Positions 4,111 to 64,000 of a stretch of 64,000 bases of DNA are shown here, one piece after another (the stretch's first letter is position 1; every line of letters starts with the position of its first letter). The stretch is from Moniliella sp. 'wahieum' (Eukaryota; Basidiomycota; Moniliellomycetes; Moniliellales; Moniliellaceae): NCBI GenBank assembly GCA_003971905.1, contig RSEE01000008.1:558001-622000 (forward strand). Reading direction: 5' to 3'. The notes under the pieces were generated by a model. It did not search any database and was not told the DNA's origin. It worked only from the letters and a program-made list of their open reading frames with translations. The position numbers and the translations under genes were made by a program.

Positions 4111-4159
4111 TGAAGCTTGAAGCTTGAAGCGTTGAAATGTGAAATGTGAAACGTGAACA
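4111..4159. repeat. Seven-unit degenerate heptamer array in a divergent promoter
   Basis: Seven consecutive 7-mers can be read without a gap: tgaagct, tgaagct, tgaagcg, ttgaaat, gtgaaat, gtgaaac, gtgaaca. It lies between the starts of the COX23-like (3962, -) and PPR-like (4249, +) genes. It is one of many 7-bp arrays in this window; unit length is kept while sequence drifts. Confidence 0.85.
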
Positions 4160-4248
4160 ATCACACGTCCTTTAATTTTTGCAAGCAAGAAGTTCTTCGC
4201 AGTGCCCCCACCACCGCCGTTGCTACCACGAGTGGCGTCGACGAGAAG

Positions 4249-7200
4249 ATGCTGGGCATTGCTCTCCGTGCTGCCCGAAGTCGGCGCCTCGCAGTGGCTC
4301 CTGCTGCAGTTCGCCCACAGGGAATTGCCGCGTTCCATGCATCGGCTGCGCTGGCCGAGAAGGCCCGCCTCTCCCGCCGCGGCTTCACCATCCCCGGCCG
4401 CAGCAGCAGCCTCAAGCTCAGCCGCGCTAAAATCACGCCCGATCTCAACCTGCGCGTCCCCCCGTCCCAGCGAGAGAAGCGCGAGCGTGCCAGTCTCTCG
4501 GCAGTGCGCGAGCACTACTCAATCGGCCTCGGCAAGCTGTTGGCCCCCGTTCTCGACTCGACCACTACGCAAGGCGAGCGGCAGCGGGCTATGTTCCACG
4601 CAGCTTCCTTTTTTACCAACTCGACCCCTCGTGTGATCAAATTGTCCGACCCTGCGCTGTGGAACCAGATGCTGACTGCACTGGTGGCTGTCGGAGAGCG
4701 GCGGCACCCGATGAAACTCTTTGCCGTCATGAAGCGTAACGGCATCTACCCCGACATGGCCACCTTCACTTCTGTTTTTCGGTCCATGCGCCAGGAACTG
4801 CTACGCCTCGGGCGCGCTAGCGCTCCTAGCAACCCAGAAAATGAAGATAACCTTCCGGTTCCTTCCCATTCTGCTCCCAATTGGGAAAAGACGTTGGATC
4901 AGCGAGGCCCCGATGCCCAGCAGTGGATGCCTTCGTCAATGATCATCCAACACCAGTACTTTGTCGCCGCCTTGGAAAAGTTTCGCATCGCTGTGCTAGA
5001 TTTTTATCGCATGTCTCGCGGAGAGACAGTCGCCTCGACGGGACTGCCCTCACCAGTGCATTACAAGAACCAGCGTCGCAGCACCGGAAAGCACAATGCT
5101 ATGTTCAATGCCCCTCGGTCCCAACTGCAATATACCTAACGATGACCCTTCCGATGCAGCCTATGAGGCTGCGGCTTCCCGCGTCTCACGTCAATCCCAC
5201 GAGCGCTCCCGTGCCATGGCAAGGAACAAGACGTCCTCCCTTGGCCGGAGAGAAGCCGAGGTGCCCAACTTTCTTCCTGGGAGAGGTCAGGACCGTGCTC
5301 TCCTCTCTCCCAAGAATGGTCATCTCGTTTCTGTGAACTCAGACGAGACCCCGGATGATACCGAGTTGGCGGCGATGGACCCGGAATTCGAGGAGTACTC
5401 GGAAGAAATGGCGGCGGCCCAGCGTAGGTTGGACGCAAAAAGGACGATCCAAGCACGCTCCCTGCCACATCGGTTCAAGCCCTGGTTGAGCGGCAGCACA
5501 GCGAGCTGGACGAGGAGAGCCGTGGACATTTGACGCCATGGCAACGCATGTACTTGACCAAACGAAAAGCCTTGCTCCGCGCTGCGGAGCAATGGGACGA
5601 GTTGGCGAACGCTTACTCGTTGGCCATCGGACTGGGATCGATGCTCGGGCGACCCAATCAAGCCTGGGCAATGTACAGCAACATTTCCCTTCCCGGTGCT
5701 CGACGCGGACTTCCATGGCCTAGTGGTCTCATCTTTTACACTGTCCTGCGTCACTTGACTCCTGCCCCAAACGAGGCGCGTGACCTTGCTCGAGCTGAAC
5801 GCGCGGATCTTGCCGCCAAAGAGAAGAACCAAGGTCTGCGTCCGGACGAAATCATCTCCAACTTTGATCCCTACGCTGCCCTGGGGCCCAATGCACTGGA
5901 CAAGAGCTTGACGGCCCACGATGCGGCGAGGGTCACTCTCGAAATGTTGACGGGGGGATCGGGAGCCGGGCTAACGCCTACGGGCCGACCGTTTGAGGCC
6001 GACTCGAGCGATGGGAAAGAGATGCTGCTGCAGTGGCGGCCAAAGCTTCGCGCTGTGGTGGAGGACTGGCTGACCGTCCTTTACAAAACGGCTCGCACGG
6101 TGGATCCACCCGAAAAGTTCCTCAACTCAGTTTGGATGGACGCCCATGCTTTGAACCAAGTGGTGCATACTTTGACTCTAGTACGTTTCCCCTCCTCCTT
6201 TCTGATCCAACACGAGCTAACCTATTCTATATGCAGATGAATGACGAAAAGTCGGCCACTCTCGCGCTGCGCTTAGTGGCGGGCATGTTCAAGGTGTACG
6301 GCAACCTTCCTGTGCCTGTAAAGGAAGAACCACAGCCAGCCAAGCCAGACCCCGTCTCTGTTTCAGAGCTAGCCCCTGTTCCAGAGGGGACCTGGGATGC
6401 GCTCGCGGCAGCCGGTTTGGTCGAGCCCCCTCGTTTGAGATGGATCAAGAGGAGCGTCTTTCCCCGCGCAGCAGTCAGGAAGAAAAAGCGGACAACCCTT
6501 GGCTCACACCAACGGATATGGCAGAACAACGCAAGGCGGACCTGATGACCGAGGAGAGTGACTTTCCTGATGAGGTAGTGCGGGACCAAGACGCCAAGAA
6601 GTCGATTTGCCATGACAAGTGGCATGGAGCAACCGCCTTCACTGGCACAGAAGAGTTCGTCACCTCCATGTGATGCGCCCGACCCAGATGAGGATAAGCT
6701 GTGGAAAAAGGGCCGCGGCAGGTACCAAAAGGGGTTCAAGTCGGGTGGGAAGCACCGCTCTTTGGACCCATTCAAGCGGCGCGGCTACGTGCCCGAGGGA
6801 CAGGAGCTTGATCGCTTCCTTACGGGACCTCTCTTTGCTGAAAAGGGGGATGCGTTACCTGTGTACACGCGGCGGAGTGAGTTGCGGATGGAGCTGCGGA
6901 ACCCCAAGAACAAAGCTATGCTTCACCAGTTGCACACCAACATTATGGTCTGCAGCCACATTGTGGGTCGACCTGAGTTGTACTCCTGGTTGGCTGACCA
7001 CATGGGTGCTGCCGCTCCTAAGACACCGGAGGTGGATCTGCCGTCGATGACGCGCGGTATGTCGTCGGCACGGAGAAGGAAGGTGGCGGCCAAGCTGCAC
7101 AAGTACCCCTTCGGTCGGCCACCTACAATTCTTCCGTTCGACATGCGTCCATCACCCTTTGGACGGACACGGCACTGCGTACCCCTCCTGCTCGCGATGG

Positions 7201-7444
7201 TCAATTGGTTGCCCCAGGCTGGAACGAGTCGGGCGGGGAAAAGTCTCGGAACCGGCACAGGACCTTGGCCAAGGCCAACAGGGGTAAACTCCAGGGACGC
7301 TCTCTCGGCAACGGCAGGCTGGGTCACACAAGTGGGGAGGACGAGCTCAAGTCGGAATTTGCTCGGTTCAGTCAAACCCAGGAGGGAGAACCAGAGGTAT
7401 CGCCCGAGGACACGGCCTGGTCCACGCAACGCACCTGGGGTTGA
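4249..7444 (+). CDS. Mitochondrial pentatricopeptide-repeat (PPR)-like protein, several apparent frameshifts
   Basis: About 1,040 codons. The start at 4249 opens with an Arg/Ala/Ser-rich, acid-free leader (MLGIALRAARSRRLAVAPAA, then GIAAFHASAALAEKARLSRR), a typical mitochondrial presequence. Around residues 155-195, ALWNQMLTALVAVGERRHPM and LFAVMKRNGIYPDMATFTSV look like a PPR helix pair, suggesting mitochondrial RNA processing or translation. A real 56-nt intron lies at 6181-6236 (GTACGT, GCTAACC, GCAG), joining HTLTL to MNDEKSATLALRL. The coding frame otherwise shifts near 5110, at the A5 run 5437-5441, the C5 run 6426-6430, near 6655 and at the T3 run 7158-7160; protein-like sequence resumes at each point, so these look like indels rather than decay. 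The C-terminal half (KLWKKGRGRYQKGFKSGG, MLHQLHTNIMVCSHIVGRPE) is basic. No specific yeast orthologue is recognised. Confidence 0.7.
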
Positions 7445-7854
7445 CTCTTCTTCGCAGTCTTCGCGAAACTCGTTCCCTGGCCCAGCCAAGTTTGCCCCGT
7501 CCAAGTTTGCCCCGCCCAGGGGTCGTTCTTGATCTGGACTGGAGTACCTACCTGCCACCACTCGTGTGTCTTCTCATGTACGCCACTCATCGCACTTTCG
7601 GCATCATAAGACGATGGTTTCTTCACATTCATCTACACCACTATGGTTAGTTTAAATGGTGGCGGAGAGGACGATGCAGCCAGTTAACAAATGAAGCAAG
7701 ACAGTAGAAGGTAGAGGGCCAAGGTAGATGACATGGGGGCTGCACTTCATCAGGAACGATGGGCTAGGCGCCGAGAAAGCGACAATAGCATGCGCCCATC
7801 AAGTGTCATTCGACAAGGACGAGGGGGGCATGGAAGGTAACAGATCTTGACCTT

Positions 7855-8335
7855 TTAGTTGGAGCAGTCGCATCCCTGGCCCGTGGGGCAGTCACCAGAG
7901 ATGGTCGCGAAGGCCGAGTTCGTAGTGCAACCGCAGCCCTGGCCGGTAGGGCAGTCACCAGGTACGAAGGAAGGCCGAGAGAAGGAGGCAATGCCACGCG
8001 CATACAGCGCCGACGAAACAGGGGCCTTGACACTGGGACGAGAGGCAAACAGCCCCGTCTGGCGACCCAAAGAGAAAGACCGACCGTTGGAGCAGCCGCA
8101 GCCCGAGCCCGTGGGGCAGTCGCCCGGCACGGTCGAAGGCCGTGCCGAGTTGCTCGAAGAGCAATCACAGCCCTGGCCCGTGGGGCAGTCGCCCGCCTTG
8201 GCGAAAGCGCGTGCAGAGGCACTAAAGGTGCGCACCGTGGTCATTGCCATGGTACGGGACGTGCAGGAGCAGCCGCTGCCAGTGGGGCACTGTGAGTGCA
8301 GTGCGGAGCGCAGGTCGGAGCGTGGCAAGCATCAT
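7855..8335 (-). CDS. Cysteine-repeat (CPTGxGCxC x5) small protein with mitochondrial-type leader; metallothionein-like
   Basis: Five copies of a C-P-T-G-x-G-C-x-C unit are visible: QCPTGSGCSCTS, DCPTGQGCDCSSS, DCPTGSGCGCSNG, DCPTGQGCGCTTN and DCPTGQGCDCSN, the last directly before the stop at 7855. C-x5-C-x-C spacing suggests a soft-metal-binding metallothionein-like role (inference). The linkers are Arg/Ser/Ala-rich and acid-free (TTVRTFSASARAFAKAG; SALYARGIASFSRPSFVPG), resembling repeated mitochondrial presequences. The frame carrying all five units has no ATG before the first unit. ATGATG at 8335 begins MMLATLRPALRTALT, a good presequence, but is out of frame by one base near 8287, so either one indel is present or translation starts at 8250 (MAMTTVRTFSASARAF), leaving four units. 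I do not recognise the family. Confidence 0.65.
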
Positions 8336-12198: not shown

Positions 12199-12317
12199 TT
12201 TCATTCAGATACTAATCGATCGTATTGGAATCTGAGTCGGCTAGGCTATGACAAGGGTGGTGCGGCAGTGCCTGGAATGTGAAGTTCAGAAAGATATGCA
12301 TAGTGGGCAAGTTCATC

Positions 12318-14154: not shown

Positions 14155-14627
14155 GTAATCCAAGGGTGCTGAGAAGGATGGCTTAGAGTTGGATGGAGGA
14201 CGGGATGCTACAGAGATAGCCGACGTTACCAGGTGGCAGTGGCGGGCCAGGCACTAGGTGTACTTAGGCGCTGCATGCGCTACGTGGCGCACAAGCGGAG
14301 CGCAGTTTCACTGGCTGCTTTTTTCTTTTTCTTTTTCGCATTTTCGTTTTTTACCCCAGGTCTGCCGCATATCCTCCTCTGAAGTGTACAAATGAGCCTA
14401 TCACGACGTCGATCGCGAAGGCCTATTTCAGGCTAGACAGATCCAATCCTTCCGCATCACTCCCAGCCACATACTTCTGGCATGCTCAACATTACCCATT
14501 GTGCAACGCAAGCCCGTATTAGCCCCTAAATACTTGCATTAATGGACGTCCTATACGGGAATACACGGCAGATAGAGCAGAGGAAAGAACATTTTGGTGT
14601 CATCTCTCGCTCGAGAGACATTAAGCT
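14155..14627. other. Intergenic region, no gene seen
   Basis: Contains a pyrimidine stretch (ctttttcgcattttcgtttt near 14330-14350) that may belong to the upstream region of the hydrolase gene, and no convincing open frame. Confidence 0.4.
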
Positions 14628-15443
14628 TTAAGCCTCCACTTCAGGAATCTTAGGGCCCTCTTGCTGTTCCCGCCATTCGCGCAAGGCTTCAATTGTGATG
14701 GCGTGCAGTCCATGCTCCTTGGCAAACGCAAGGCATGCGTCTCGGGCAGCAATACCGCCATCCTCGTTGGTGGGATCGACCAGTTCACACAACAGACCTG
14801 CGGGGGGCTGGCCTGTAGCAAAGCACAGATCTGTCGCAAACAGGGTAAGTATCCGACTCCCAGCGCGGAAACAACGATAGAAGGGAAGCAGGTAATAAGG
14901 AGCCGACAGAAATGGGTACTTACCAATGGCAGCTTCAGTGTGTCCCTGGCGCACCCGAGTGCCTCCGGGGCGGTAGCAGAGAGGGACGAGATGGCCAGGG
15001 CGGGTAAAGGACTCGGGGGTGGGCTTCTCCGGTGCCGGGGCCAACGAAGCCTGCGCGCCCTGAGCAAATCGTTTGGGGGGCGAAGGACGGACATGGGATG
15101 CGGTGGCGGCGAGCATGCGTGCGGTCAAAGCACGATCATGGGCCGAGATACCGGTAGTTGTGCCCTTGGCATAGTCAACGGTAACTGCATACGCAGTTCG
15201 GTTGCGGTCAGTGTTGGTGGTAACCATGGGAGGGATGTCGAGTGCATCAAGGACGGTGGGGTGGCAGGGGGCGCAAATGTAGCCAGAGGTGTGTTTGACG
15301 AAAAAGGCCATTTGGGCTTGGGTGATGGTCGAGCCCGAGATGATGAGGTCCCCTTCATTCTCCCGGTCTTCGCGGTCGAGCACGACGAGAAACTCGCCGC
15401 GGGCAAATGCCTCAAGGGCGTCGGGGATGGAGCTGAAGGACAT
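14628..15443 (-). CDS. RIB3: 3,4-dihydroxy-2-butanone 4-phosphate synthase (riboflavin biosynthesis)
   Basis: Converts ribulose 5-phosphate to L-3,4-dihydroxy-2-butanone 4-phosphate plus formate, supplying the four-carbon unit of riboflavin. The start at 15443 gives MSFSSIPDALEAFARGEFLV, as in other RibB/Rib3 proteins; the longer upstream frame is 5' leader. The active-site block DREDRENEGDLIISG, GISAHDRALTARML, RPGHLVPL and RQGHTEAAIG are all present, covering the acidic metal-binding loop and conserved His. The C-terminus has CELVDPTNEDGGIAARD. A 93-nt intron (14923-14831, GTAAGT..GACAG) interrupts after HTEAAI and preserves frame. About 240 residues, slightly long because of a proline-rich insert before RPGHLVPL. 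No frameshift. The enzyme is soluble, usually cytosolic and Mg-dependent. Confidence 0.95.
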   Translation of the reverse strand: MSFSSIPDALEAFARGEFLVVLDREDRENEGDLIISGSTITQAQMAFFVKHTSGYICAPCHPTVLDALDIPPMVTTNTDRNRTAYAVTVDYAKGTTTGISAHDRALTARMLAATASHVRPSPPKRFAQGAQASLAPAPEKPTPESFTRPGHLVPLCYRPGGTRVRQGHTEAAIGKYPFLSAPYYLLPFYRCFRAGSRILTLFATDLCFATGQPPAGLLCELVDPTNEDGGIAARDACLAFAKEHGLHAITIEALREWREQQEGPKIPEVEA

Positions 15444-15694
15444 GGAGGAGGGCGGGGTGAAGGGCAGAGGAGGGATGGCCAGACGGGGGGGGTATAGGGA
15501 GACGGTGGAAGAAGGGCAGGTGTGAGGCGTGAGGCTCCGGTCAGGTGGCGGGAGCGCGGACATGCGCAGCCAGAAGCGTGGCGTGCGGTTTCGGACCTTC
15601 GTTTTCACACCCGGTCTCATTCCCTGGTCGGGTTGGCTCAATTCGGGCGTACCACGCCGGGGACAAGGCCTAAGGGTGACCGGTGATTAGCGCT

Positions 15695-15715
15695 GTGACA
15701 TGTGACATGTGATGA
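15695..15715. repeat. Three-unit heptamer array (gtgacat, gtgacat, gtgatga)
   Basis: Short tandem 7-mers upstream of RIB3, in the divergent interval between RIB3 and the CoA-transferase. The word GTGACAT / ATGTCAC recurs at 23488, 31378, 38670, 40640, 41135, 42266 and 44095. Confidence 0.7.
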
Positions 15716-16081
15716 GGTGGTTTGCATTAGGTCAGCAGCAAGGCATCACCGGTCCCTAAGCTGGATGACATCATCGATCATCCTGGGGCATCGTAGGCCA
15801 TGGTCACAGCCTGGGACAGCTTGCCTGTTGCATGCATTACACCGGCTGTCGGAGCGGAGCGGCCGGACCGGTGTGACGATGATCACCGACCAGCCAGCCG
15901 GGCTTAAAGCCGGATGCATGACGCCGCAAGGATGGTTGGGGCAAGCTAGTCGCTATCCATGTCCATCAGCGTTTGTGGGGCAGCTGCTCCACTTTAATAC
16001 CCTCAGTGTTGCGCCTCATTCATGCACACACACCACCAGCCTCTCGCATCCTCCCACCACCACTCTCCGGTCTCCTTTGCC

Positions 16082-20124: not shown

Positions 20125-21242
20125 GATACAGATATATGGGACGCGGTGTCGGTGGTTGTACAGTTGAAAAAGAAGGGAGGAGAGAAGGCGGGGAGGGGGG
20201 GGGGTAGAAGCGGCGGCGGTGGATAGCAGCCCGAGTGGTAGCAGCAATCGTCGTCACAGAAGGTACGGACGACCCACTGTGCAAGAAAGAGATGGGATGG
20301 AGAGAGGACACCGGATGGATTCCATCATCTTATACCATCCACACAACACGACGTACCACCACTACTGCGCCACATCCCTCCATGCATCGACCCTGGTCAT
20401 CCGTGTGTGATAGCGCCCATTCACCAGCTCGTTGATTGTAAAGGTGCAGTGGCACTGCCGTGGCGCTTTCGGTGGCGCTGGTGGGGTCTTCGCACCCGGC
20501 GGGTGGGGCTCCAACCGCACGGGGGCAGTGCTCAGCCCTGTCTCCGCGGAACAGGATTTATATTTTGTAGCCGAGTTCCTCAGACGTGTCAATCATACTC
20601 TTCCGTTTGTGGAGCTAAGCGCTAAGCACTGCGAAGCCCGATGCAAATAGTATGTGCTGCGGCCTGCTGTGGCAGAGGCTGTGGCTGCTCCACCACACGT
20701 CTCCGCCTTTAAGCCCAGGGGCGATCCTCAGGCCTACGGCCTCAAGCTGAGGCCTCACCGGCACCGGGCCATAGCCGCACAGACGACCTGATTGTGGACG
20801 AGAGGAACGAAGGACAGTGCTGTATTGCTGGCGCTTATTTCTTGGCGCTTTTTTGTGATGTGCATCAACGTATCAACGTTGTTGAACGTTGAGCGCGTTG
20901 AGCCATGATCAAGTGGGTTACTGCTAAGCGTTAACATCAACAGTATATATAACTGCTGTTACATCATTCGGACAACCCTAGCCTCTGTTCTCCGCGCTAT
21001 GAAGACCTAAGGGCCTAAGATCTAATAACTTCTCGCGGGCGCAGTTCGATGTCATGATCGACATGATCAGCGGAGTGACGCCCACTTTTAAAACGTTGGG
21101 CTCTTATTGGGCTTACGCGCTTACGCGTTACGCGTATTCTACGCGCTATATCAATAGCCTCTGTTGCTGTAGCCAGACGCATCCTATTGCACACAGCTTT
21201 TTTATGAATTTCGGAACAGCAGCGGATATGAGAGAATCGGAG
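20125..21242. other. Repeat-rich intergenic region without a gene
   Basis: Upstream of the GMC oxidoreductase. Contains short 7-bp tandem words: gctaagc x2 (20614-20627), a GTTGAGC/ATCAACG cluster (about 20867-20902) and a five-unit array gcttacg, cgcttac, gcgttac, gcgtatt, ctacgcg (21111-21145). A GGCCTCA-rich stretch lies at 20713-20755. No open frame looks coding. Confidence 0.55.
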
Positions 21243-21665
21243 ACCTGAAGTCCGGATGGTCATCGAGGGTGATGCAATCACACGGATGGTGGTGGTGGTC
21301 TATGTCATAGTTTGGCTGATCTCGCCCCCATTTTCAATTTCTTCGTCTCGAGCGTCTCGCTCCTTCCCTGTTTCTTCCACTTCGCACCATGTCAACTGTT
21401 CTTGCTTTTCCCCACGAACGATTGCTACACCCCTTGGCCTAGTCCGATCCTGGTCTCCCTCGCCTTAGCCCCGACTGTGACAGTCTAAGCCAGCCAGCAA
21501 CCCCTTACAGAGGAACATCAAGCTTCAAGTCGCGAGTCGCTACCACGGTCTAGTTTAAACTGCGACGGAACAATAAGGAAAAACAGGAGAAAGAAGACAA
21601 CGGAACTCCTATAGGCATGAGTGCATGAGGAGGAACCGAAGGGACGTTGGACAAAGCGTGAACCA
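21243..21665 (-). mobile_element. 5'-truncated LINE 3'-end fragment (copy A), interrupted by a solo LTR
   Basis: Segments 21243-21297 and 21488-21665 match, in the same order, a sequence at 33757-33975 (same orientation) and at ~23950-24190 (opposite orientation). Shared words include gagggtgatgcaatc, cagaggaacatcaagc and gaggaactgaagggac-like sequence. All copies lose similarity just beyond ggac(t/c)ccaggtctc, which I take as the common 3' end; in copy A this is near 21243. In the longest copy this block lies 3' of a decayed reverse-transcriptase reading frame, so it is interpreted as a LINE 3' UTR. The right boundary is approximate. Confidence 0.6.
21303..21482. mobile_element. Solo LTR, 180 bp, with 5-bp target site duplication
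   Basis: Begins TGTCATAG and ends CTGTGACA, short inverted termini with the canonical TG..CA of LTR retrotransposons. It is flanked by GTCTA on both sides (21298-21302 and 21483-21487). The same sequence occurs inverted at 23616-23799. The element splits a repeat that is continuous in the related copies (ggtctaagcc in copy B), which confirms it as an insertion with a 5-bp duplication. No internal retroelement genes are present. Confidence 0.8.
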
Positions 21666-23487: not shown

Positions 23488-23515
23488 GTGACGTGTGACA
23501 TGTGACATGCGACAG
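23488..23515. repeat. Four-unit heptamer array (gtgacgt, gtgacat, gtgacat, gcgacag)
   Basis: Perfect 7-bp phasing, followed at once by other 7-bp spaced words (cactagt x2, then GAAGCTT words up to about 23573). Confidence 0.75.
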
Positions 23516-23615
23516 TCACTGGAGCCACTAGTCACTAGTCACGTGAAGCTTGAAGAGCTTGAAGCTTGACTAGTTTTGCGCGCCTGGTCTTGCGGCATTA
23601 TCAAAAACCGCCTCT

Positions 23616-24990: not shown

Positions 24991-26514
24991 GTCGATATCG
25001 CTTGAATGCATTTTTTGGCTTGTGTCCGCACCCAATCCAAAAGTTGGGCCCGTTTTGCACGAGGCTGTGCGAGAACCAGAGCTGACCTGCTGTGGTGACT
25101 CCACACTGGCCTTTTGGTCTGTCGGAGCAAATAAGCACAGCACACGCCGGATGAGCTCGATGATCGATGACCGCCGAGACGCAGCTCGAGAGCAAGCCGG
25201 GTATATAGGCGCAGCGCTTTCTTTTTGTCCCTTAATCTTGAGCACTCTCTCTGAGTAAAAGAGGATATAATGACGCGGGGTTTTGGCGCTGGTAAGTAAA
25301 AAGTGCTTTAGTTGAGCGCTATATAGTGGGGATGAGTTCGATGAGTCCAGCGTGAGGATGTGCATAGCATTGCCGCCCCCACGCGCCCAATCCAATCAAG
25401 AAGTTGCTCGCCCAACAGATGATACTCGCCATCAGACCAGAGCCCCTCAGGGCCTCAGGCCTCACCCTCACCCGGGGAAGAGAGATATGACGTCATACTT
25501 CTGAATACATATGCCGCTCGTGCGCTGAGCGTAATTTATAGTGGGTGCAGTTCTGATGGAGCCCTTTTCTTAGTGTGACCAGGTGCTTCCGACGGTTCGG
25601 GGCGGGCGGAAGCGCCAAACGTGTGTTGTACGATAGGCGATAGGCATAGGCCATGCTGGGGCGGGCCCACCAGTTATAAAACGGTGTGACTTGGCCAAAC
25701 CAGATGGAAGGTGATGCAGACGATGATGCCTGTGATGCACTTGATGCTGCGGATGATTCCGATGATTAGGATGATTTGATAGGCAAAACACGTTACAGCC
25801 TGGCCCCGATGGGGCCATCGCGGGCCCGGCCATCCGCCGCCAGACTATCGTCGTGCCGAGAGGGCGCAAGGATGAGAAGCTCTTCAACCGATAGCAATAT
25901 CAATTGGCGAGGCTGTTCAGCGGTTGAGAGTTGAGATGCACCGTCGAACTTTATGGCCTGAGGCCCAGGGCTATCGGCGCGGGAGGGAGTGGCGGGAGTT
26001 TAGATTTGGGGATCGAATTGGGCTGGGCTGCACACTCGCTGCGCCGAGACAAGTCTTCTTCCGGGCGCCGTCGAGAGGATGGGGAAGACCAGCACCCCAC
26101 ATTAACCTGCCACCCTGCTGACGCGTGACGGCGCTACCCAGTCCATCTCAGATCTCACAACCAGACGTCGGGGCAGCGGGGATGCGTGATGGGGGGGTGC
26201 TGAGCCCAGGCACGGGGCGAGTGGCTTGGCTGTGGGTGTGGTTGTGCCCTGTGCCCTCCAGCAGCAGGCCGCGTACATCACGCGTCAAATGTCGCGTTGA
26301 ACGTTGAGATTGGGATCTGAGATCTTACACTGCCGCCCGCCCTTGCAGCTGCGTGCGCTTGTCGGCGCAGGCGGGCAGTGTACAGTGGCCCCACGCTGGT
26401 TGTGCGCTCGCCTGCGCACGGGCAGAGGGCGGCACCACAGCGCAGACCGAGCAAGACGGAGCAGCACACAGCACGGCGCCTGCCACGGCCAGACGCGGCC
26501 GCTTCCGCGGGCGG
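24991..26514. other. Gene-free region with degenerate repeats
   Basis: A minus-strand frame at 24964-25395 shows some protein-like composition but no recognised domain, and it abuts LINE sequence. GGCCTCA-type words occur near 25444-25476. Nothing else supported. Confidence 0.45.
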
Positions 26515-26556
26515 CGTGAGCGTGACGCGTGACGCGTGACACTGTCAGGTGACGCT
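26515..26556. repeat. Six-unit heptamer array (cgtgagc, gtgacgc x2, gtgacac, tgtcagg, tgacgct)
   Basis: 7-bp phased units 5' of the acetyltransferase-MSS4 gene. Confidence 0.7.
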
Positions 26557-29615: not shown

Positions 29616-31088
29616 TCCGAGGAGCCGTCGTGGCCACCGCCTGAACCTGCGGTAGGCGTTTTGGTGGTCTCGCTCCATGTTGTCGGGTTCACTCTTTGTT
29701 TTTGTCTCCTTTCGGGGACTGAGTGTCGATCCCTCTGTTTCCCCACCACCTACCCTCGCTACCTTCTCTCTGGCCGCACGACCCCCCCCCCTTTAATATA
29801 TATCGCCTCTGAGCCAACCGCTCGGCCAACGTTCCTTTGCGTTGACTTCGCTCTGATGTTTTCTGTTCTGTTCTATTCGTTTTCTACGATGGGCTGCGGC
29901 CGCCAAGCGAGCCAAAAGGTCGCGCTACCACCCTGTTTTCTGGCATTATCTAGGTCGGATTCCATTTCCCTGCCTATCCGTTGCAGCTCTTTCGTCCGCC
30001 TCTTTTGCGTCGTGCCTGCGCCGGCGCCGGGGCTGGGGACAGTATCCATACTCCGCGTCGTGGACAGGTTCTGTTTTTCTGTGTCTCCGTGGTGGGTTCA
30101 GCTTTAATCTATATCGTGTGCCTCCCCCTGCCATACTAGCTGGGCAGATGGGCAGACTGGTCGGGTTGAGTCGGATGAGTACTGAGTAACAGTGAGTCGG
30201 CGGGGGGAATTGCTTAGGGTGCCGACACAACCTCGCTAAAGGTAATGACCATGGCAAGTAAGCTGGCACGTTACCCCGCAGTTCGGGGACCCGCCCTTCA
30301 ACGGATCTGGAACCTACACACGCTGCTCCGCCCTCAGAGGGTTTGAGCTGGGGCCCTAGCACGCAGGCGGCCACCCAAACCACATAGAGGGTATCTCCTC
30401 GTCTCTACTGCAGCTCGGTTCAACCAGGATCTGATCTGAGACCAGACATATCGTGCGTGGCTCGGTTGACCGTCCAACAAGGGTATGTACACTGGCTAAA
30501 CTACTACAGTAGCGGCTCCGGTCTCGGGGCCCTTCCCATGACAGCGATTGGGATACAGAGACGACATCAAGGGAAGCAGAGAGGGTGAGTTCATATATAT
30601 CATCGTCAGCCTTCCACCTACTCTGGCAGTCATCCTGACGCACCAGAGGCAAAAAGTGAAGAAACTATACTCGCTGGACAGCCGCTGGTTGTCTATATGT
30701 TTTCCCAGTGCACCCTCACGGGCATATACATCTTCAGTGGTGCCGGAGTCTAACGTTCCCATGGCCACTAAGGTCTTCCTCTGTTGAGCCTTCTTCAGTA
30801 TAGTGGACAACACCCCCCTACACCGACAGACACAGCAGTTCCAAAAAAGCTGCCGCCGCGACAGTGGCTCTTCCCATCTGACGGCAGAGCAGCTTCTGCT
30901 GTCTATCCAGGGGGCCTCCCTAGGTAGGGATTCAGCGCCCTTCCCCCTCTCATACCCCTTCCCGATCCAACAGCAAGGAAGAATCCTTTGCCTATCCCCT
31001 CGGTCGTGCCCATAGCTACTTCGACGAGAGCAGGAATGCTGGGTGAGGTTATATGAGGTGAGCCTATTAGTGAGACAAGCGTGCATAT
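29616..31088. other. Gene-free region
   Basis: Pyrimidine-rich 3' flank of the acetyltransferase gene with a C8 tract near 29782, then sequence with no recognisable coding frame or repeat on either strand. Confidence 0.45.
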
Positions 31089-31377: not shown

Positions 31378-31512
31378 TGCGTCACATGTCACATGCATGT
31401 CACAGCTCATGTCACAGCTCATGTCACAGCTCATGTCACAGCCGGTGTGACATGTGGTCGCACGTGGCTCATGTCACAGCCCATGTCACATGTGATCGCA
31501 CGTGTCACGTCG
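31378..31512. repeat. TGTCAC-rich tandem array (7- and 12-bp units)
   Basis: Starts with tcacatg units in 7-bp phase, then three copies of the 12-mer cagctcatgtca, then inverted forms (ggtgtgacatgtgg) and gtgatcgcacgtgtcacg. It is the longest TGTCAC/GTGACA cluster in the window and is rich in CACATGTG-like E-box palindromes. Confidence 0.75.
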
Positions 31513-37389: not shown

Positions 37390-39104
37390 TCACGCCCACT
37401 TGGCTGCGGCCGAGATGGAGGGTTGCAGGGGAGACTTGAGCAGCCCATGCGGATGAGAAAGTTGAGACTGTTGTCCGGGGAGAAAGATGGAGGGGGCGGG
37501 GGTGAAGGCGCTAGGGGAGAGAATGTCCATAGAAGTGCAGGCCGATGTGGAGCTGGCAGAAGAGTAGGAGAGACGCGGGACCTCGCCTACGCTAGGCCCG
37601 GTGCTACACCGCGAGGCGGAGGGGGGAAAACTGTGAAACCCCCCCGCCGAGGAGGAGCTAGGCGTGTACCCGGTCCCATTGGACGGTCGGGCGGGGGAGA
37701 TGGAAGCACGGTGGCTGGAGGTGCGGGACGTGCGCGTGGCAGCCGTCACGGGCGGGCCACCAATCGTCGACGCGCGAGACGAACGCGGGGGAACCAAGAG
37801 GGGATCCCTGAACTCGGCCGAGCAGCCCGTTCACTGTACGTCCGCGCCGGTTGCACCATATGCGCTCGGGGCGAAGTGCTACTGCTGGCAGCACTCAAGC
37901 TGTGCCGTCCGGGTTGCTGCTGCGGCGAGGGAAAGGTACCACTGATGGGAGCCGACAAGCGCCAACTGGCCCGAGACCGAGGCGGGGCACCTTCGTCGTA
38001 CAGTGGTGCCACTGCCGCCGTGCCGACGGCCGAGGAAGTGGCCCGAGGCGAGCGCGGTGCAACGCAGGCGAGATAAAGGTAATGTTCCAAGTTGGTAGTG
38101 GGGTCGTTGAGCGACTTGGTAAACGCGGCCAGCTCCGTCGGGTCGACATTGACCTTGTAGTTGAGGAAGCCAAACAGTTCCCGCTCCATGTGGTTGATCT
38201 CCTCGAGCGAAAAGAGGCCCTGGCCAACGATGGTCCAGCTCTTGTTGCTGTACGTGTCGTCACAGATGGACTTGCTGGAGAGCATCATGGCGCTAATGAA
38301 GAGGGGGTGACCACTGCTGCCCCGAGCGGCGGGGAAGTGCTGCTTGAGACGCTTGAGGAGATAGAGGGTATGGTACGTCACCTCCTCGGGAAGGCGGGTG
38401 CGGTACAGCGCATAGGCGACAAATTGGGCCAGTTGGGGCGCCGGCTTTTGCGAAGCACCCACCCTGGGAGCCGATCCGTCACGGCTCGTGCTGGGGCAGC
38501 CAAACAGGAGATTGACAAACCGTTCGCACAAGAGCGAAATATCTGCCGGGGGGGAGCGGAAGAAGAAAGACAGGGGGATCACCCGGTCAGCGCTGCTGAG
38601 CACTTTTTTTTTTTTTTTCTCACAAGCCCCGACAGGGTAAAAGAAAGGGGTGCGGTGACAGCCACAGGCGTGGCTGTCACATGTCACACCAAGTCATACC
38701 CGATGAAGGCGGGGAAGCGGAGGAAAGAACGTACCCCTGAATCCGTAATAGGGATCATAGTCACGCTTGCGCTCGGACTTGGTCGTCGACGATGCCTGGG
38801 CAGAGGCAGATGAGGACGACGGGCGCGTGGCTGGCGGGGCTCGAGACGTCTTTTCGGGGACGGTGGACGCAGGCGGGAGATGGCCGAGGCGGAGGCAGCG
38901 GATGGGTCGCGGCGATGGAAGAAGGTGCGAGCGGTTGTCGGGGGTGGCGGCAGCTGGCGCGGCGGAGGCGTTAGCGGACGCGATGGCAACCGCTGCTCCG
39001 GCACTGGAGCGGGCCGAGGTGCTGGCATGGCGCACACGGCGGGCGGAGGAGGAGCGGGTGGCCCAGGCCGGTACAGACACAGCAGCCATGACGGATGGAT
39101 GCAC
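37390..39104 (-). CDS. PCL-type cyclin (Pcl1/Pho80-related)
   Basis: About 505 codons. Exon 1 (MHPSVMAAVSVPAWATRSSS start; MAAVSV at 39089 is an alternative) is Ala/Ser-rich and ends KRDYDPYYGFR. A 192-nt intron (38734-38543, GTACGT..CGGCAG, containing a T15 tract on the + strand) joins to DISLLCERFVNLLFGCPS. The cyclin box follows: QLAQFVAYALYRTRLPEEVT, LYLLKRLKQHFPAARGSSGH, ISAMMLSSKSICDDTYSNKS, GLFSLEEINHMERELFGFLN. This matches the PCL family that activates Pho85/CDK5-like kinases in G1 and phosphate signalling. The C-terminal tail is Ser/Pro/Thr-rich and needs one base correction at the C run near 37788 to read on to SISAAAKWA. Regulation by phosphorylation of the tail is plausible but not shown. 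Confidence 0.82.
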
Positions 39105-41206
39105 GAGGAGGGAGCGCCGGAGGGTGTGGGTGGTGCTGGTGCTGGTGGCGGTGGTGGTGCTGGGGGGGATGGGAAAGAGGAGGAAGGAGAGGGTCGGACC
39201 GACAGGAGGCGGGACGGAGAGGAGTTAGTTATAGGCGCGTGGGTGCGGCGTGCGCCGAGGCAGAGCGCAGGGCAGCCCGGGGGCCGCAGGCAGGCGCAGG
39301 CGCACCCTGGGCCGGCCACACCCCACACTGACCCCGCCCGGCACGGCACCACAGCTCCTGGGTCTCAGTGTGCAATGCAATCTCCCCTCCGAAGCTTCTG
39401 CCAGGCACTCTGCCCGGGCCCTGGCCAGCGCGGCCACACGCCTGCCTGCGCTGCCCTGCGCCCGCCTGCGCCCGCCTGCGCCCTCCTGCGCCCCCTGCGC
39501 CTGCCTGCGCCTGCCTGCGCCTGCCTGCGCCCTGTGCTGGGGTGCCACACCCACACCTTGCCCCGTGCGTTGCCTCCGGCGCGCGTCATCCATCACCCGC
39601 TCAGCGCTCGACCTCAGCGCCAACCCCCTGCCGACCCCCTGCAGATTGCATCGCCTGAATCAGCGATCGACAATCGCCGATCATCGATCATCGACCATCA
39701 TCCATCCATCATCGATCATCCTCATGCATCCTCGATCACCCATCGTGCATCAGCGGCAGGCGCCCCGGCCAGTGCACTGGTGCAGTTGCCACCCGCCAGA
39801 GAATGCACCGGGTACGCCACACCACGCCACGCCCCTCCACGCCACGCCACACCCCCCACCCATCGCACACCGCCGGTCGCACACCCACCGTCCCAGCGTG
39901 TACCCTGGCGCACCACGGGTGGGCCGCGTGCGCTGGCCTACCCTGGCCAACCCACGCCTACCCACCCCTACCCTGCTAACTGGAACGCCACGTAGGCCCT
40001 CTTCTTGCAGCTTGCAGGCGGCCTAGCATAGATCATCCATGCTCCGCCGCGCGTCCGTGTCAGCCGTTCCTTGCCTGCCCTGTGGGACGAAGCGCGAGGG
40101 CGCTCCTGCAGGTTCCTGCCTCTTTTACTGCCTGGGGTGCAGTTTGAACGCTCCTCATGCATCGATTGTCGATCATCCATCATCGCACAGTTTGTGAGCC
40201 GCATTTCCGGGCGCATGGTGGCTTGCAGCTGGCAGGACTTGGGCCATGGCGTCAGTCTTCCAGCTTGAGCCGTCTGGGTTGCATCCTGGTAAGTATGCCG
40301 ATCAGCATGCCGTGGATACAGTCAGCGTCGTGCGGAGGCACCCAGCAAGCGCCAAAAGCGCGTAGGCTAACCGCTAAGCGCCTGAGCCTCAGGCCTCGCA
40401 CACCATGCCGGACTAGGCCCTACTACCTACTAGGCATCCAGCTCATTCACACGCCGCCAGAGATCTGATATCTGAGGACGAGCGTGGAGGAGCGCGGAGC
40501 CTGGAGGAGGCTTCAACTACCTTAAACCCTGCCGCTGCCTGCCCTCGACACGTCCAACATAACTTTTGAAAACATCCAATATCCAGAGCTTCCGCCTTCC
40601 ACGTCTTCCCCTCCCAGGCCCCAAAACTCACACTCATGTCACACTCACCGCCACATATCATGTATCACATGATACGCCACATGTCACACGCCAATCACCG
40701 TGTATCACGCTTTGGTTACCCTACTCGCAGCTTCTCGCGGTTGCCAGGTATTGCACAATGCTCTCACAATTCGCGCAGTTCGTTGTTGTGCACACTCTCC
40801 AGGACGATGATGTTCGGCCGTTCTTTGTTATCTTGGCATCGGCCTATCTCGCGCCTGTCTCTTCCCTCAGGGCATCAGCGCCTGCAGTGCGCCAGCGGCT
40901 CTTTTCTCCGGCGTCGCTTTTTTCGGACGGCGCTTTCATCCGCCGCGCGTCTATATCCCCCCGTAGACCATGCGTCCCAAACAGCGTCACAGTCTCTCTC
41001 AACTGGCCGCCATGCAATCTTCCCACAGCTGCGGGAATCCTTTCAACAGCTCGCGGGTCCACGTGATGACGAGTTACCTAGTTACTAATTACTAGTTTAC
41101 TACTAACCAACTCAGCCGCGCACTCACGGTACTCACGTGTCACATGTCACGCCCTGTCACAACTACCACGCTCTCCTGGTCTGGCGTGGTTTCTCTCCCG
41201 CTCGAC

Positions 41207-41234
41207 GCGTTACGCGTTGCGCGTTAGGCGTTAT
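41207..41234. repeat. Four-unit heptamer array (gcgttac, gcgttgc, gcgttag, gcgttat)
   Basis: Exact 7-bp phase; related CGTTACG words recur near 21111, 41790 and 44007. Confidence 0.75.
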
Positions 41235-41863
41235 TGGACCCTAGGTGTTAAGCGTTTTTACCACATAACCCGTTTCCTTTTTTCAATGTTCCTGGGCACT
41301 ATCGTATAGTGTTGGATCTTCTGGCAGGCGTCCATCGCTATTGCGTGTCGCCACACCTCAGACCTCACGCCAGTCACGCAGTACTAGTGCAGATAGTTTT
41401 TACTGATACCGAGTATCGAGTGAAGTCTGAGGTCTGTGGCAAGATCCAATCTTCGTCTCGCGCACTAGGCCTTTTCAGACAGCGCCGCAACAAAGCAACC
41501 ATATACCCTAGGCTCCGCCGTCTTGGTCGCTGGGCCAGTGCTCAGCGCTCAACCGCTGCCGCGGTGCCGGGCCCACGTAGCCTGGCAAAATTTGACTTGT
41601 CGAATGGGCGGGTGGGTCGCGTGGCGGTGGCGGACTGTGGGGTGTGGCTACGGTGTGCGCGGCGCCCAGGTGCGCTATAGTAGGTGCACTCTGGTGGTGC
41701 GCTTCGTGGCCGGTGGCCCCCAATTCAACATGGCTCCACGGCCCCCGTTGAAGGCTACCGTACACGTACGCACATGGGCGAAGTGCTAACGCGTTGCACG
41801 TTACACGCTAAGTACGTTAATCGTTAAACCCGCGTCTACTACACGGTATGCATGGTATGCACA

Positions 41864-41902
41864 GTGCATCATGTGCATCATGCATCATGCATCATGCATC
41901 AG
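41864..41902. repeat. GCATCAT heptamer array
   Basis: gcatcat x3 plus gcatcag in perfect 7-bp phase (41875-41902), preceded by a 9-bp variant gtgcatcat. The same word pair occurs at 42903-42916. Confidence 0.8.
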
Positions 41903-42265
41903 GTCCCGGGCTGAGACCTGAGCCTCAGGTGCCACACAACATACATCAGATAGGACTGGTGACATCACAGGTGGCCATGCGATTGCATACCGTAGAATCG
42001 GGCCGACCGGAGCATTAGGCCGCGGTGGGCCACCGAGTCGTGGTGTTGTAGCGTACTGGGGCGTGGCGTCGCCCGGTGCGTGGCAGAGCAGGGGCTGCGC
42101 GAGAGGGCGGAGCGTGACGCACGGAGGGAGTGTGGCCTATCACGCAGGGCCGTCGGGACTGATCAACTTGACAGATCTGTGGCTGCCGGGTGCGCTTTTT
42201 TGCTCCGCACCGGAGTATAGGATGCGTGCTACAGCGAGTGACGAGCTAGTGACTACTGACGTGGA

Positions 42266-42321
42266 ATGTCACATGTCACATGTCACATGTCACATATCAC
42301 AAGCCACATGCCACCTGTCAC
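42266..42321. repeat. Eight-unit ATGTCAC heptamer array
   Basis: atgtcac x4, then atatcac, aagccac, atgccac, ctgtcac: eight consecutive 7-mers, the first four identical and the rest drifting while the spacing stays exact. Confidence 0.9.
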
Positions 42322-43593
42322 GTCTCAGGAGATTCGCGTCACGGAGACATGTTGAATTGGAGCCACATCTGTGATGCCTGTGACATATGAATTCCAGAGC
42401 CACATGTGATGGTGGTAGGTATATAGCAGCCCCTAGTTACTAGTTCGGCCGCATCTTCGTGTCAAGGATGGTGTGGGATGGCGGATGGCGAGGCAGGTAG
42501 GGTGTAGCATATCCAGCAAATGCTGCGAGCCCTCGCCTGTCGTCGCTCCCCGCAGTGCGGAGTGCTCGTGGTGGGTGCAGGTACTGCACCCCCCTTTTCA
42601 TCCTGTCCTACACAATTTTCTCTGGGAGCTCAGGCTGAGCAGCGCTCCGCCTGAGCGCCGCGCATCACGTGCCACAATGAATCGCACGCGTCATCGTCGG
42701 CATAATTGATCCTTCTTTGCTCTCCAAGAAACCCATTCTCGATTCTCCATTCTTCCAACCTCCGTCTTTCTGCGCGGAGCACGCAGGCACCGCGGCAAGA
42801 AGGCGGGCAGTGTGCGAGGCATTGCATGCTCCCCCACGTCCGAGCCATAATAGCTGGTCACCGGTCACTAGGATCTGTATCCGCGCATCCGACATCATGT
42901 TGCATCATGCATCAGGCCTCAGGCCTCAGCTGAGGCCTCATGTGCATCGGGCCCAGGTCGATCCCAACATCAGGCCATCAGGCCTATCAGGCCCTGCCCA
43001 GGCTAGGCCTGAGGCCCCTGAGGCCCGAGGCCGGATGCAGGCCTGATGCGCCTGATGCACCTGGTGCCTGGGTCTGAGGGGCCTGAGTGAGGGATGCATG
43101 ATGGAGGGTCGTTAATCGATAATCACTCAATTGCTGACTGTACCGTCGAGTATTGTAGTGGCGTCCTGGTCCATCCGGCTATGGACACCGCATGGATGCT
43201 AAAGCGTTTAGAACAGCAGCGCAGGCGATCGATTGCGGGTGAGATGGGCATTGATGGTAGGAAGTAGGACGAGGGCTACAGGAGAAGGTTTGGCTTATGC
43301 GGGTACGCGCGCCGGAGCCCGCGGAGCCTCGGGGCTAGTGAGGCCAGGCTGGAAGTGCACCGCGATCGGTGAGGCTAGTCACCGTGGCAACAGTATACCA
43401 AGTACTGAGATACTCAGACTGAGTTGCCATTAATGGACTGAGCGAGTACTGGGTGCCTGAGATATGTCAGCCGGAGGTGCGAGGACAGGACACATACCGC
43501 ATGGGCGCGCTGCCCTGACTCATACACTCTTGATTAATCGTAACGCGTGTAGCGCGTAATCGACGTAAGATTGGTGTTGATCGAGTTGATCGG

Positions 43594-43621
43594 TTGAGCG
43601 GTGAGCGGTGAGCGCGTGAGC
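43594..43621. repeat. Four-unit heptamer array (ttgagcg, gtgagcg x2, cgtgagc)
   Basis: 7-bp phased, following looser GTTGATC words. Confidence 0.75.
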
Positions 43622-44006
43622 GACAGATGATCGATCGGTGGAATTAGCGATCCCGCCTTCTTGGGCGATCATATGGATCCGGCCTCTGAAGAGCTGGAAG
43701 CTTCAAAGCCCAGAGGCCCCCACGCCCCCAGTCCCTCAAGGGCATCAGGCCCTCAGGGGTCTCAGGGTGCTCACGCGCTACGAGCGATCCTCGTCAGCTT
43801 AACCACGGCGAAAACCGTACTCTACCCTACTCTATCGGCCAGCCCCCGCACAAGAGAGCCCATACTACATACATACTCATCCATATCTCAGATCTCACAT
43901 CTCGCAACCCCGATAGGTACCTTTTAATAGAGCGCGTCACGCCTCATCAGGGCCTCAGGGCCTTTTAGCTGCTAAGGCCCTAAAGGCCTAGGGGGCTTAA
44001 TTCAGA

Positions 44007-44054
44007 CGTAACGCGTAACGCATACTAAGGGCCGTAAGGCGTAAGGCATAAGGG
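44007..44054. repeat. Two adjacent heptamer arrays (cgtaacg x2; gtaaggc x2, ataaggg)
   Basis: Two unrelated 7-mers, each tandem, at 44007-44020 and 44034-44054. Confidence 0.65.
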
Positions 44055-44846
44055 ATTCTCAGCACGCTCAGCGCTGCTCGCAACGCTCACAGGGTCACAT
44101 GTCACTTGTCAGGAGGCCACAGGAGAGGACGTCTCTTGGCCTTCGTCGGTTGCCGGGCCTCTGGCCCTCAGGGCCTCAGGTCCTTCTCGATTGTTCGACG
44201 GCCCTCCATGTCAGGGCTTCCTGTTGTCAGGGCCTTCGGGTATGCCAGGTATCCCCTCGGGCGCGTTAGGAGGGGGCGTTAGGGAGGCCTCGCGCGCCTC
44301 AGGGCCTCAAAAAGTGGGAGCGTCAGACTTGAGTACGTTGAGTCCCTTAGGCCTCGGGGGCTGCCGGGACGGTGGGACCTGTCCATATATGTCAGCGCGT
44401 CAGCCCATGGCCAGGGAGGGCATATTGGAAGGAATGAACCGGCAGGACCCGGGCTTGAGCTATTACCAGCGCCACTCCGCCAGTGTGGGCGACAGGGGAG
44501 GGAAGGGTAGAGCTGGCAGACGATGGAATATGGAGGGCAAAAGGGAGAAGGAAAAAGACCGAGTGTCGCGGCGGCCTCAGTCAGTGGTGTCTGTCTCGCT
44601 TTTGTCCATTCTGTGGCGCAGCTCTAGCAAAGTTTTTAGTGCTGAGAGCGTGCGCTCTAAGATTTAACGCAAGGCTTAGCGCTTAGCAAGCTCAAGTGGC
44701 GCCGAGTAGCACTTGCGCCTTAAAGCTTAGTATGTGATGTTTAGCCTTGGTACTTATTGTACGATGAAGCTTATTGGAGCTTGACTAGCTCGACGCTTGA
44801 GAGCGCAAAGCCTATGGGACTGGGGCCTCAGGCCCTTGAAGCCATA

Positions 44847-45014
44847 GAAGCTTGAAGCTCGAAGCTTGCTTTTGGGGTCTGAGGTTCTGAGTTCTGTGGC
44901 GGATGCATGATGTATACATGGCGCAGGTGAGATCGACGGCAAAACTGGCTGGCGTCGGTACTTGAAGCTCCAAGCTCCAAGCTCCAAAAGCTCGAAGCTC
45001 CAAGCTCCAAGCCT
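44847..45014. repeat. GAAGCTT / CAAGCTC heptamer arrays
   Basis: gaagctt, gaagctc, gaagctt (44847-44867) and gaagctc, caagctc x2, a 9-bp variant, gaagctc, caagctc, caagcct (44964-45014), all 7-bp units but one. Confidence 0.8.
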
Positions 45015-50872: not shown

Positions 50873-51008
50873 GGCCAAGGGTACCCAGAGCGGGTCCAAT
50901 GTCACGTGTGCTACTCGTTGTTGAACTATGTGGTGGCTCATATCATGCACAGGGGGAGGCGTAGAACAGATAAAAGCAGCTTGCATTTTGGGACAAGAGG
51001 GAGCCGAT

Positions 51009-63200: not shown

Positions 63201-63361
63201 GTGGTCTCGGTGCTTACCTCGATGAAGCTGGGTTTGCCTCCTTCCTTGAGTGTGGTGCGTTCAGCGCGGCGCCAGAGTTGGACGAGACTCAGCGTGTGCT
63301 GGTCGCTCGGTTGGCTGCCGCGTTGCTAGCGGGCGCCATCGATGCGGGGGCGCATGATTAA
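54262..63361 (+). CDS. Neurofibromin/IRA-type Ras GTPase-activating protein
   Basis: About 2,950 codons. Start MDRPESDSPLAAEMAG. Introns 54622-54683 and 58242-58301 (both GTACGT) keep frame; a third GTACGT donor is at 62988 with an uncertain acceptor near 63064 or 63085. The N-terminal half is helical repeat. The GAP domain (58.65-59.6 kb) has VFRTNSFRTRLLSVYARMHG (arginine finger in FRTNS) and GGFMFLRFISPAIVAPQLID (FLR motif). Then the NF1 Sec14-like module (60.0-60.45 kb: RPVLYYSVAAVRAATVDFEA, HREFDLLVDMT) and PH-like part (PQEMWVGMAAATNEVIHFAD). The rest is ARM/HEAT-like. It inactivates Ras. Single-base breaks occur near 55395, 55770, 58618, G5 59464-59468, 59885, 60005, 60530, 61890 and 62640; homologous sequence continues across each. 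Confidence 0.9.
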
Positions 63362-64000
63362 GTCATTTTTTGCATGGCAACGCTCCCTCTCTCAAACCTC
63401 TCACCAAGTGACTCCTTGCCTGGGCTCGATCCATCATTATCCACATGATATCCCCCTCTCACGCTACAGCTGGGCTGGGCCTACTTTGCCACTGCTCCGA
63501 GTGCTGCAGCTGGTTGGCCCGCCTCTGTGCCTTTGTTCCCTAGTTCGCCCGCGTATGTTTTTACCTACGATGGCACCCTGGTTTCGCGACATGTTTCCTC
63601 TTCTTTGCTCTATCTTTCCTGATTTTTTGGCTCTTTGAATGGATTGAATGTTCCGTGGGTTTGGAGTAGTTGAACAGATCGCACGTTCAACGTTCAACCA
63701 ACGAATGTAATAACAGCGTATAACCGGTAGCCCGTTCAACTGGCACCATGTGGGCATGTTGTGACGTGGAGATGTGAGCTTCGGAACAAGACAGCAGTTG
63801 TGTGCTGCATCGACACTACTAGGCCACTGCTTTATTCTGGCTCCTGCGCCTTCCCTTCGTAACGTTCTGGTCTTCCCTTAACCAATCTTCACGTCATGAA
63901 CCGGCACCGCTGCCACACTCGATACTTTGTCGGGGTTACCGACCAGATCCCTAGCTCTTTCAGTGGGTCGGGGGTCGGATCTCTGATTGCGAACAGGTGC
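63362..64000. other. 3' flank of the RasGAP gene, no gene seen
   Basis: Pyrimidine-rich 3' region. A tandem 7-mer pair acgttca x2 is at 63684-63697. No coding frame of substance to the window end. Confidence 0.4.

Follow-up and report, generated by a model that had tools for sequence, protein, structure and literature searches.

Why should short tandem arrays of many different sequences, scattered mainly through the intergenic DNA of Moniliella sp. 'wahieum', share a repeat unit of 7 bp? The question arose in a 64,000-nucleotide stretch (the window; bases 558001-622000 of contig C8, with positions in it written as w plus number) of an assembly of 69.5 Mb in 223 contigs. An initial annotation had described its arrays as built from unrelated units and had ascribed the constant length to a dedicated process such as a 7-nucleotide (nt) stagger. 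The analysis described here shows that a common form underlies the units, namely T-N-A and then a 4-bp palindrome, and that a seven-base product of fixed geometry has been gained at two loci. Counts refer to the window, to the whole genome, or to a 314-kb sample consisting of the window and 25 loci of 10 kb regularly spaced on C1-C10 (0.5% of the genome; loci such as L005 and L021 are included in every 314-kb count, L001 and L002 are excluded). Coding and non-coding DNA were separated by open reading frames (ORFs) of at least 200 amino acids, here called long ORFs.

The arrays lie where they had been reported, since Tandem Repeats Finder recovers them there, and the preference for a 7-bp unit is equally real, mainly outside long ORFs. 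Runs of at least eight bases matching at a lag of 7 number 26 in the window (1.3 ± 1.1 in 40 local dinucleotide shuffles), the top count among lags 2 to 30 (lag 6, 18; lag 9, 17; lag 8, 8). For a unit of 7 bp, the 314 kb contain 161 exact two-copy duplications outside long ORFs and 55 within them (shuffled total, 23.1). The corresponding numbers are 128 and 179 for 6 bp, which prevail within long ORFs (shuffled, 83.9), 23 and 14 for 8 bp (shuffled, 6.5), and 18 and 18 for 9 bp (shuffled, 1.3). Genome-wide, four TGA triplets at period 7 are found 6448 times and the reversed pattern 1198 times; at period 8 the counts are 420 and 147. Together, the sample and the genome-wide pattern counts approximate the unit-length histogram proposed in the initial annotation.

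The units are not unrelated, however. Fourteen of the 19 listed units, suitably rotated, read as TNA joined to a 4-bp palindrome, a form taken exactly by 2.7% of heptamers by chance. Three more are one base off, which says little because 28% of random heptamers are too, and two are two bases off: GCTTACG (w21111, chiefly an 8-bp repeat) and GGACAAG x9 (w36965). The GGACAAG array (9.1 units, 100% identical, w36965-37028) is a plain satellite outside the TNA-plus-palindrome rule. The four bases between two TGA are palindromic in 235 of 435 TGA-N4-TGA sequences and those between TAA pairs in 43 of 96, compared with 41 of 380 (11%) for TGG, which ranks next once strand mirrors are set aside. All 16 palindromes serve as spacer, although unevenly (from AGCT, 42, down to TATA, 2). 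Of the exact 7-bp duplications, those of this form are 91 among the 161 outside long ORFs and 15 among the 55 inside. Over the whole genome TGTGACATGTGA occurs 2638 times (reversed control, 6) and TGAAGCTTGAAGCTTGA 2270 times (control, 0). Ordinary slippage of arbitrary units does not account for the fixed length, as had been argued from the beginning, and the units follow one rule. Arrays of mixed palindromes were considered as a separate signal and dropped: adjacent differing palindromes are near chance (6 vs 51 palindrome/non-palindrome pairs in the systematic sample), and 11 more mixed pairs in L028-L047, loci chosen by eye, were kept out of the statistics.

The commonest isolated product is shorter than two full units. 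With x as the reverse complement of the dinucleotide x', it is the 12-bp sequence x'TNA.x.x'TNA. When the 420 isolated TRA pairs with a lag of 7 are sorted by complementarity, 97 have complementary bases on one flank only (44 left, 53 right), and these left-only and right-only 12-mers represent one product because each is the other read on the opposite strand. A further 32 are complementary on both flanks, 31 have the junction palindrome with neither flank, and one has two symmetric heptamers with a non-palindromic junction; since one-sided 12-mers dominate this split, x'TNA.x.x'TNA is the commonest product. At control lags the one-sided forms amount to 12/265 (lag 8), 18/392 (lag 9) and 4/261 (lag 10), and the raised count at lag 14 (38/334) is expected, as 14 bases are two units. 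Around 160 isolated palindromic units, identity at lag 7 is high only from two bases 5' of the first TRA to two bases past the second. In a scan of stems of 1-4 and loops of 1-8 bases (314 kb, both strands, overlapping matches included), a stem of two with a TNA loop at period 7 gave 333 matches vs ~0.7 in shuffles. Stem 1/loop 5 and stem 3/loop 1 also peak at period 7, largely through these same elements, and smaller excesses occur at other periods (e.g. stem 1/loop 4 at period 6, 701 vs 216). Exchanging the loop reduces the 333 matches to 7 (ANT), 9 (CNG) and 9 (GNC), and the middle base is equal in both TNA copies in 333 of 363 cases. Periods of 8 and 9, in which TNA is followed by one or two additional bases, are rarer, and here too many forms start with TNA (28/62 and 34/65). 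The lone heptamer x'TNAx is barely enriched (TGA, 0.077 vs 0.069 expected; TAA, 0.076 vs 0.064), and therefore symmetry is not required of the source site. The seven inserted bases are two reverse-complement bases plus five re-copied ones.

Sequence searches with window DNA identified a second, collinear copy of the region on contig C23 (256300-282100), 87-91% identical counting gaps and differing by 5.3% substitutions in 15,026 aligned bases. Two sub-genomes or two haplotypes may be represented in the assembly, or it may derive from a hybrid. Repeat insertions are found in one of the two copies only. Six of the 11 seven-base insertions or deletions (indels) between the copies lie within one mismatch of the product, a fit reached by 3.8% of random stretches: two are perfect (null, 2.0%) and four carry one mismatch (null, 1.8%). 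None of the six eight-base, five six-base and eight five-base indels fits as well. At w43885, C23 reads TCTCA/CA and the window TCTCA.GA.TCTCA/CA, a perfect seven-base difference in which the following bases (CA) differ from x, as the fold-back model set out below permits. Another perfect case is w25157, where one aligner splits the gap and another gives a 7-base gap. At w42921, w41546 and w21705, outside the 7-base rule, indels of 12, 6 and 13 bases relative to C23 resemble inverted snap-back copies around TCA/TGA.

At two repeat-family loci the product was gained, not lost. At w21518 (minus strand), within a ~230-bp repeat family, CTTGA/TG corresponds to CTTGA.AG.CTTGA/TG, and the insert is missing from the C23 counterpart and from all six other family copies read there (L024 has TAA; copy L005 is unreadable at this site). 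In the second case the insert, with its middle base changed, lies on C23 opposite w23963; neither the window nor the other family copies read there have it. These two loci set the polarity, and the remaining indels are unpolarised. Genome-wide, the w21518 site has 144 exact 16-base matches and the exact insert is present in 7, while the equivalent insertion at the adjoining non-TNA site occurs 0 times (one control). The family lies at w23949-24182, w33751-33988 and w21240-21680, and its exact 16-base and 15-base words are found 144 and 219 times in the genome, respectively. Other repeats accompany it. A ~180-bp TG...CA repeat, resembling a long terminal repeat, is present at w21304-21482 and w23616-23795; C23 lacks the former copy, which sits within a further repeat with a 5-bp duplication, TAGAC. 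A ~340-bp repeat (w24652-24993) has dozens of copies at 94-100% identity (40 candidates scored) and none in the C23 copy, and was therefore recently active.

We give about an even chance to the reading that the arrays stem from a self-templated insertion error whose geometry is fixed. Whether at a fork, in a gap or at a broken end, DNA synthesis would pause right after NNTNA; the new 3' end would fold back into a hairpin whose three-base loop is TNA and copy NN into its two-base reverse complement, x. Synthesis would then return to the template ahead of the five bases already copied and copy x'TNA a second time, giving x'TNA.x.x'TNA and a net gain of seven bases (2+5). A 4-bp palindrome would always stand between the two TNA because x is followed by x'. 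From two copies on, slippage by one 7-base unit, itself foldable as a mini-hairpin with a 2-bp stem and a three-base loop, would yield longer arrays. Fold-back, return to the template and slippage are steps that we infer from the products. Growth by 7-base slippage from a 12-base seed fits because 19-bp (12+7) arrays are many: the 73 symmetric exact duplications include 14 of them, equalling the number of plain two-copy 14-bp ones. The mismatches at w42250, w44338 and w44659 (three mismatches) are confined to the right-hand copy, which favours fold-back, and the presence of TNA at one end only favours it over a transposon-type break.

Several observations weigh against this reading. Five of the 11 seven-base indels miss the product, two by two bases, two by three and one with no fit at all. 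The peak at length 7 is modest by itself (8, 5, 11, 6 and 7 indels of 5, 6, 7, 8 and 9 bases), and longer indels also come within one mismatch of the product (2/7 of 9 bases, 1/1 of 10, 1/2 of 11, 2/3 of 12 and 3/3 of 13), these product-bearing indels of 9-13 bases being mostly array changes. Another TNA site of the ~230-bp family (CATCA) has 0 exact inserts vs 219 exact site matches, and the seven insert-bearing copies at the w21518 site may form one subfamily or descend from fewer events. A two-base stem with a three-base loop is a poor primer, and base pairing alone leaves the T..A specificity unexplained, since C..G and G..C should serve equally. Pairs with the junction palindrome only are somewhat in excess at lag 7 (31/420, 7.4%, vs 4.9-5.4% at lags 8-10), those with a left hairpin only are not (22/420, 5.2%, vs 2.3-8.4%), and full duplications number 32 vs ~6 expected from chance flanks. 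The junction-only and hairpin-only counts are explained no worse by a palindrome extending the right-hand copy than by a hairpin in the left copy.

The main rival, which we regard as unlikely, is the excision footprint of a transposon. A 5-bp target duplication of NNTNA, with the hairpin-sealed flank opened two bases off so as to leave two palindromic (P) bases, would give NNTNA.x.NNTNA, i.e. identical letters from 5+2 bases, and would suit the slight excess of junction-palindrome-only pairs. However, a 5-bp target with TNA at one end only is asymmetric, whereas the usual transposase targets are symmetric, and the readable 5-bp target duplications of two repeat copies (TAGAC and AGAGC, by eye) are not NNTNA. 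The bases between the copies match the flanking dinucleotide in all 16 kinds rather than element ends, and to account for the 190 merged loci in the 314 kb, excision would have had to leave precisely two bases a great many times. A scan for inverted ends between identical x'TNAx heptamers yielded 786 pairs, the best-scoring being mostly other arrays, and no footprint-leaving element was found in the 314 kb, where elements with 5-bp NNTNA flanks were not searched systematically. A transposon with a 7-bp target duplication was rejected, as the 15 best of those 786 pairs are mostly other arrays; so were heptamer-flanked repeats, the ~180, 230, 340 and 850 bp repeats seen by eye in a self-comparison being without flanking heptamers. 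Neither fold-back nor footprint explains T..A, for which an enzyme preferring T..A is the simplest guess.

Ordinary slippage of heptamers that fold as hairpins with a 2-bp stem and a three-base loop, seeded by chance, accounts for array growth, would account for covariation within long arrays, and agrees with run lengths of 7 (14 bp) and 12 (19 bp) being the joint modes, 14 each, of the 73 symmetric duplications. It is nevertheless improbable as the whole explanation: isolated 12-mers of 1.7 copies (97, vs 12 at lag 8, 18 at lag 9 and 4 at lag 10) cannot be produced from one copy, loops with other complementary ends show no expansion, and insertions occurred at single-copy NNTNA (w43885 and w21518), with both polarised repeat-family cases arguing against it. 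Staggered 7-nt breaks that are filled and ligated would yield the 32 isolated full duplications x'TRAx x'TRAx, but the one-sided 12-bp forms are three times as common and lone x'TRAx is hardly enriched, making this origin very improbable. What holds of the proposal in the initial annotation is that insertion is specific and occurs chiefly outside long ORFs; the plain 7-nt stagger does not hold as the commonest basic event. We give still less credence to selection for a protein- or RNA-binding motif with TRA every 7 bases and a palindromic spacer, such as the site of a dimeric transcription factor, or for stop codons in all frames. TGA is kept while spacers drift in some long arrays (an observation biased by finding arrays through TRA spacing), yet all 16 spacers are present, if unevenly, and inserts also lie within repeat-family copies. 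All-frame stop codons were discarded since TAG is not enriched (2/27 palindromic in the window).

Among described phenomena the closest class is that of short template-switch mutations, of which the self-templated insertion would be a variant. Such events insert the reverse complement of a short adjoining stretch before synthesis goes back to its original template, in some cases at a point preceding the start point (PMC7954356, PMC8794818); the median copied fragment in great apes is given as 12 bases (PMC7954356). The inserts considered here likewise contain a reverse-complement copy of neighbouring sequence (333 vs ~0.7 shuffled), the change is a gain at two repeat-family loci, and the sequence past the insert continues as in the other copy. 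They differ in that one fragment length dominates, two copied bases being joined to a five-base re-copy and a T-N-A requirement, and this form accounts for 91/161 exact 7-bp duplications lying outside long ORFs. Expansion of CNG triplets resembles the present case in a foldable single-stranded unit of palindrome plus odd base, but there one unit grows whereas here many unit sequences arise anew. P nucleotides and hAT- or RAG-type footprints are short palindromic additions between duplicated target bases; in the Moniliella elements exactly two bases are added, and the addition depends on a TNA triplet at one end. Snap-back insertions by polymerase theta involve a 3' end folding back onto short templates and vary in length and sequence. 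The fold-back and short template proposed here would be similar, and the fixed length and the sequence rule differ. A PF00476 search for family-A polymerases found no match, not even the mitochondrial enzyme that fungi are expected to carry, so the search was blind. Basidiomycota and Ascomycota are said in PMC9779921 to be without a clear polymerase theta homolog.

A literature search with limited coverage, with most subscription journals outside it and some papers present in part, returned no description of TNA-bound 7-base insertions; six 14-base words matched no paper, and the words heptanucleotide and 7 bp are absent from the available text of PMC12699852. In the viral collection IMG/VR, three 19-mers match 2, 39 and 3 stretches. 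With the matches masked, TNA loops account for 31 of 217 such forms at these 44 loci, a poor control as the loci were chosen by array match. Two contigs of unknown origin there, AT-richer, carry TGTCACA/TGTGACA arrays in inverted pairs ~100 and ~320 bp apart (L051 1293-1423 and L052 9130-9490).

Merged elements number 190 in the 314 kb, and only 26 (13.7%) lie in long ORFs, although such ORFs hold 39.6% of TNA; in the window the figures are 35 and 5. Purging from genes is expected because a 7-base insertion shifts the reading frame. The window also contains a GMC oxidoreductase gene (best relative, 66% identity; the best named relatives, at 48-50% among the best 120 of 6240, are Ascosphaera and Ustilaginomycotina, e.g. 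Tilletiaria and Testicularia, which on the thin evidence of a single gene makes a smut-like basidiomycete likely) and a tRNA-Val (AAC) gene of 98 bases (w31088-31185), probably intron-bearing, with a related stretch at L020 1742-1844.

Table 1. Elements and arrays of the window (rule form in brackets; the slash separates a site from the bases that follow it).
Position	Strand	Feature
4111..4129		TGAAGCT array (TGA+AGCT); drifted TGA-N4 units on to 4157
14621..14632		12-bp element TTAAGCTTTAAG, within long ORF
15675..15686	+	12-bp element GGTGACCGGTGA, edge of long ORF
15694..15712		19-bp array TGTGACATGTGACATGTGA (TGA+CATG)
15771..15782	-	12-bp element TCATCGATCATC (TGA+TCGA)
20614..20627		GCTAAGC x2, full copies (TAA+GCGC)
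20881..20892	+	12-bp element GTTGAACGTTGA
21121..21132	-	12-bp element TTACGCGTTACG, adjoins 8-bp repeat (21111)
21518..21529	-	12-bp element CTTGA.AG.CTTGA in ~230-bp repeat; derived insertion
23488..23569		Cluster: TGTGACA x2, AGTCACTAGTCA, two TGAAGCT-type elements
25159..25170	+	GATGATCGATGA; net +7 bases vs C23, gap placement differs between two aligners
25453..25464	+	12-bp element CCTCAGGCCTCA
26119..26157		Pair of 12-bp elements, TGACGCGTGACG + TCTCAGATCTCA
26296..26307	+	12-bp element GTTGAACGTTGA
26521..26539		19-bp array CGTGACGCGTGACGCGTGA (TGA+CGCG)
30176..30187	-	12-bp element TGAGTACTGAGT
31382..31393	-	TCACATGTCACA element, adjoins 12-bp-period array
38675..38688		TGTCACA x2, within long ORF (exception to non-coding rule)
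39679..39720		GATCATC elements (TGA+TCGA), within long ORF
41138..41149		TGTCACATGTCA element
41205..41233		Degenerate array (TTA+CGCG)
41540..41551	+	12-bp element GCTCAGCGCTCA
41876..41901		CATCATG array (TGA+TGCA); C23 shorter, 16-base gap
42250..42256	+	7-base insertion vs C23: AGTGA/CG against AGTGA.CT.ACTGA/CG, one mismatch
42267..42294		TGTCACA array (TGA+CATG); C23 shorter, 13-base gap
42856..42867	+	12-bp element GGTCACCGGTCA
42903..42928		Mixed array: TCA+TGCA, then TCA+GGCC
43113..43124		12-bp element TAATCGATAATC
43595..43622		TGAGCGG array, one base off rule
43886..43897	+	TCTCA.GA.TCTCA; C23 TCTCA/CA only; polymorphic
44007..44020		CGTAACG x2 (TAA+CGCG)
44674..44687		GCTTAGC x2 (TTA+GCGC)
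44847..44868		GAAGCTT array (TGA+AGCT)
44965..45012		AAGCTCC array, one base off TCA+AGCT
63685..63698		GTTCAAC x2 (TGA+ACGT)

What looked like a coincidence of repeat lengths becomes a simple, testable mutation rule. We tentatively suggest, though we think it rather less probable than the self-templated error itself, that 3' ends in NNTNA are recognised in this lineage by an enzyme of its own, a DNA polymerase or end-processing activity that is either dedicated or altered and performs the two-base fold-back and five-base re-copy, acting as a sequence-specific insertion mutator that continuously rewrites non-coding DNA. If the rule holds true in strains, it would provide a clean natural assay for template switching, and short palindromic spacers would arise in one step, without compensatory changes. 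It would also raise the question of which polymerase acts in a group that is said to be without polymerase theta.

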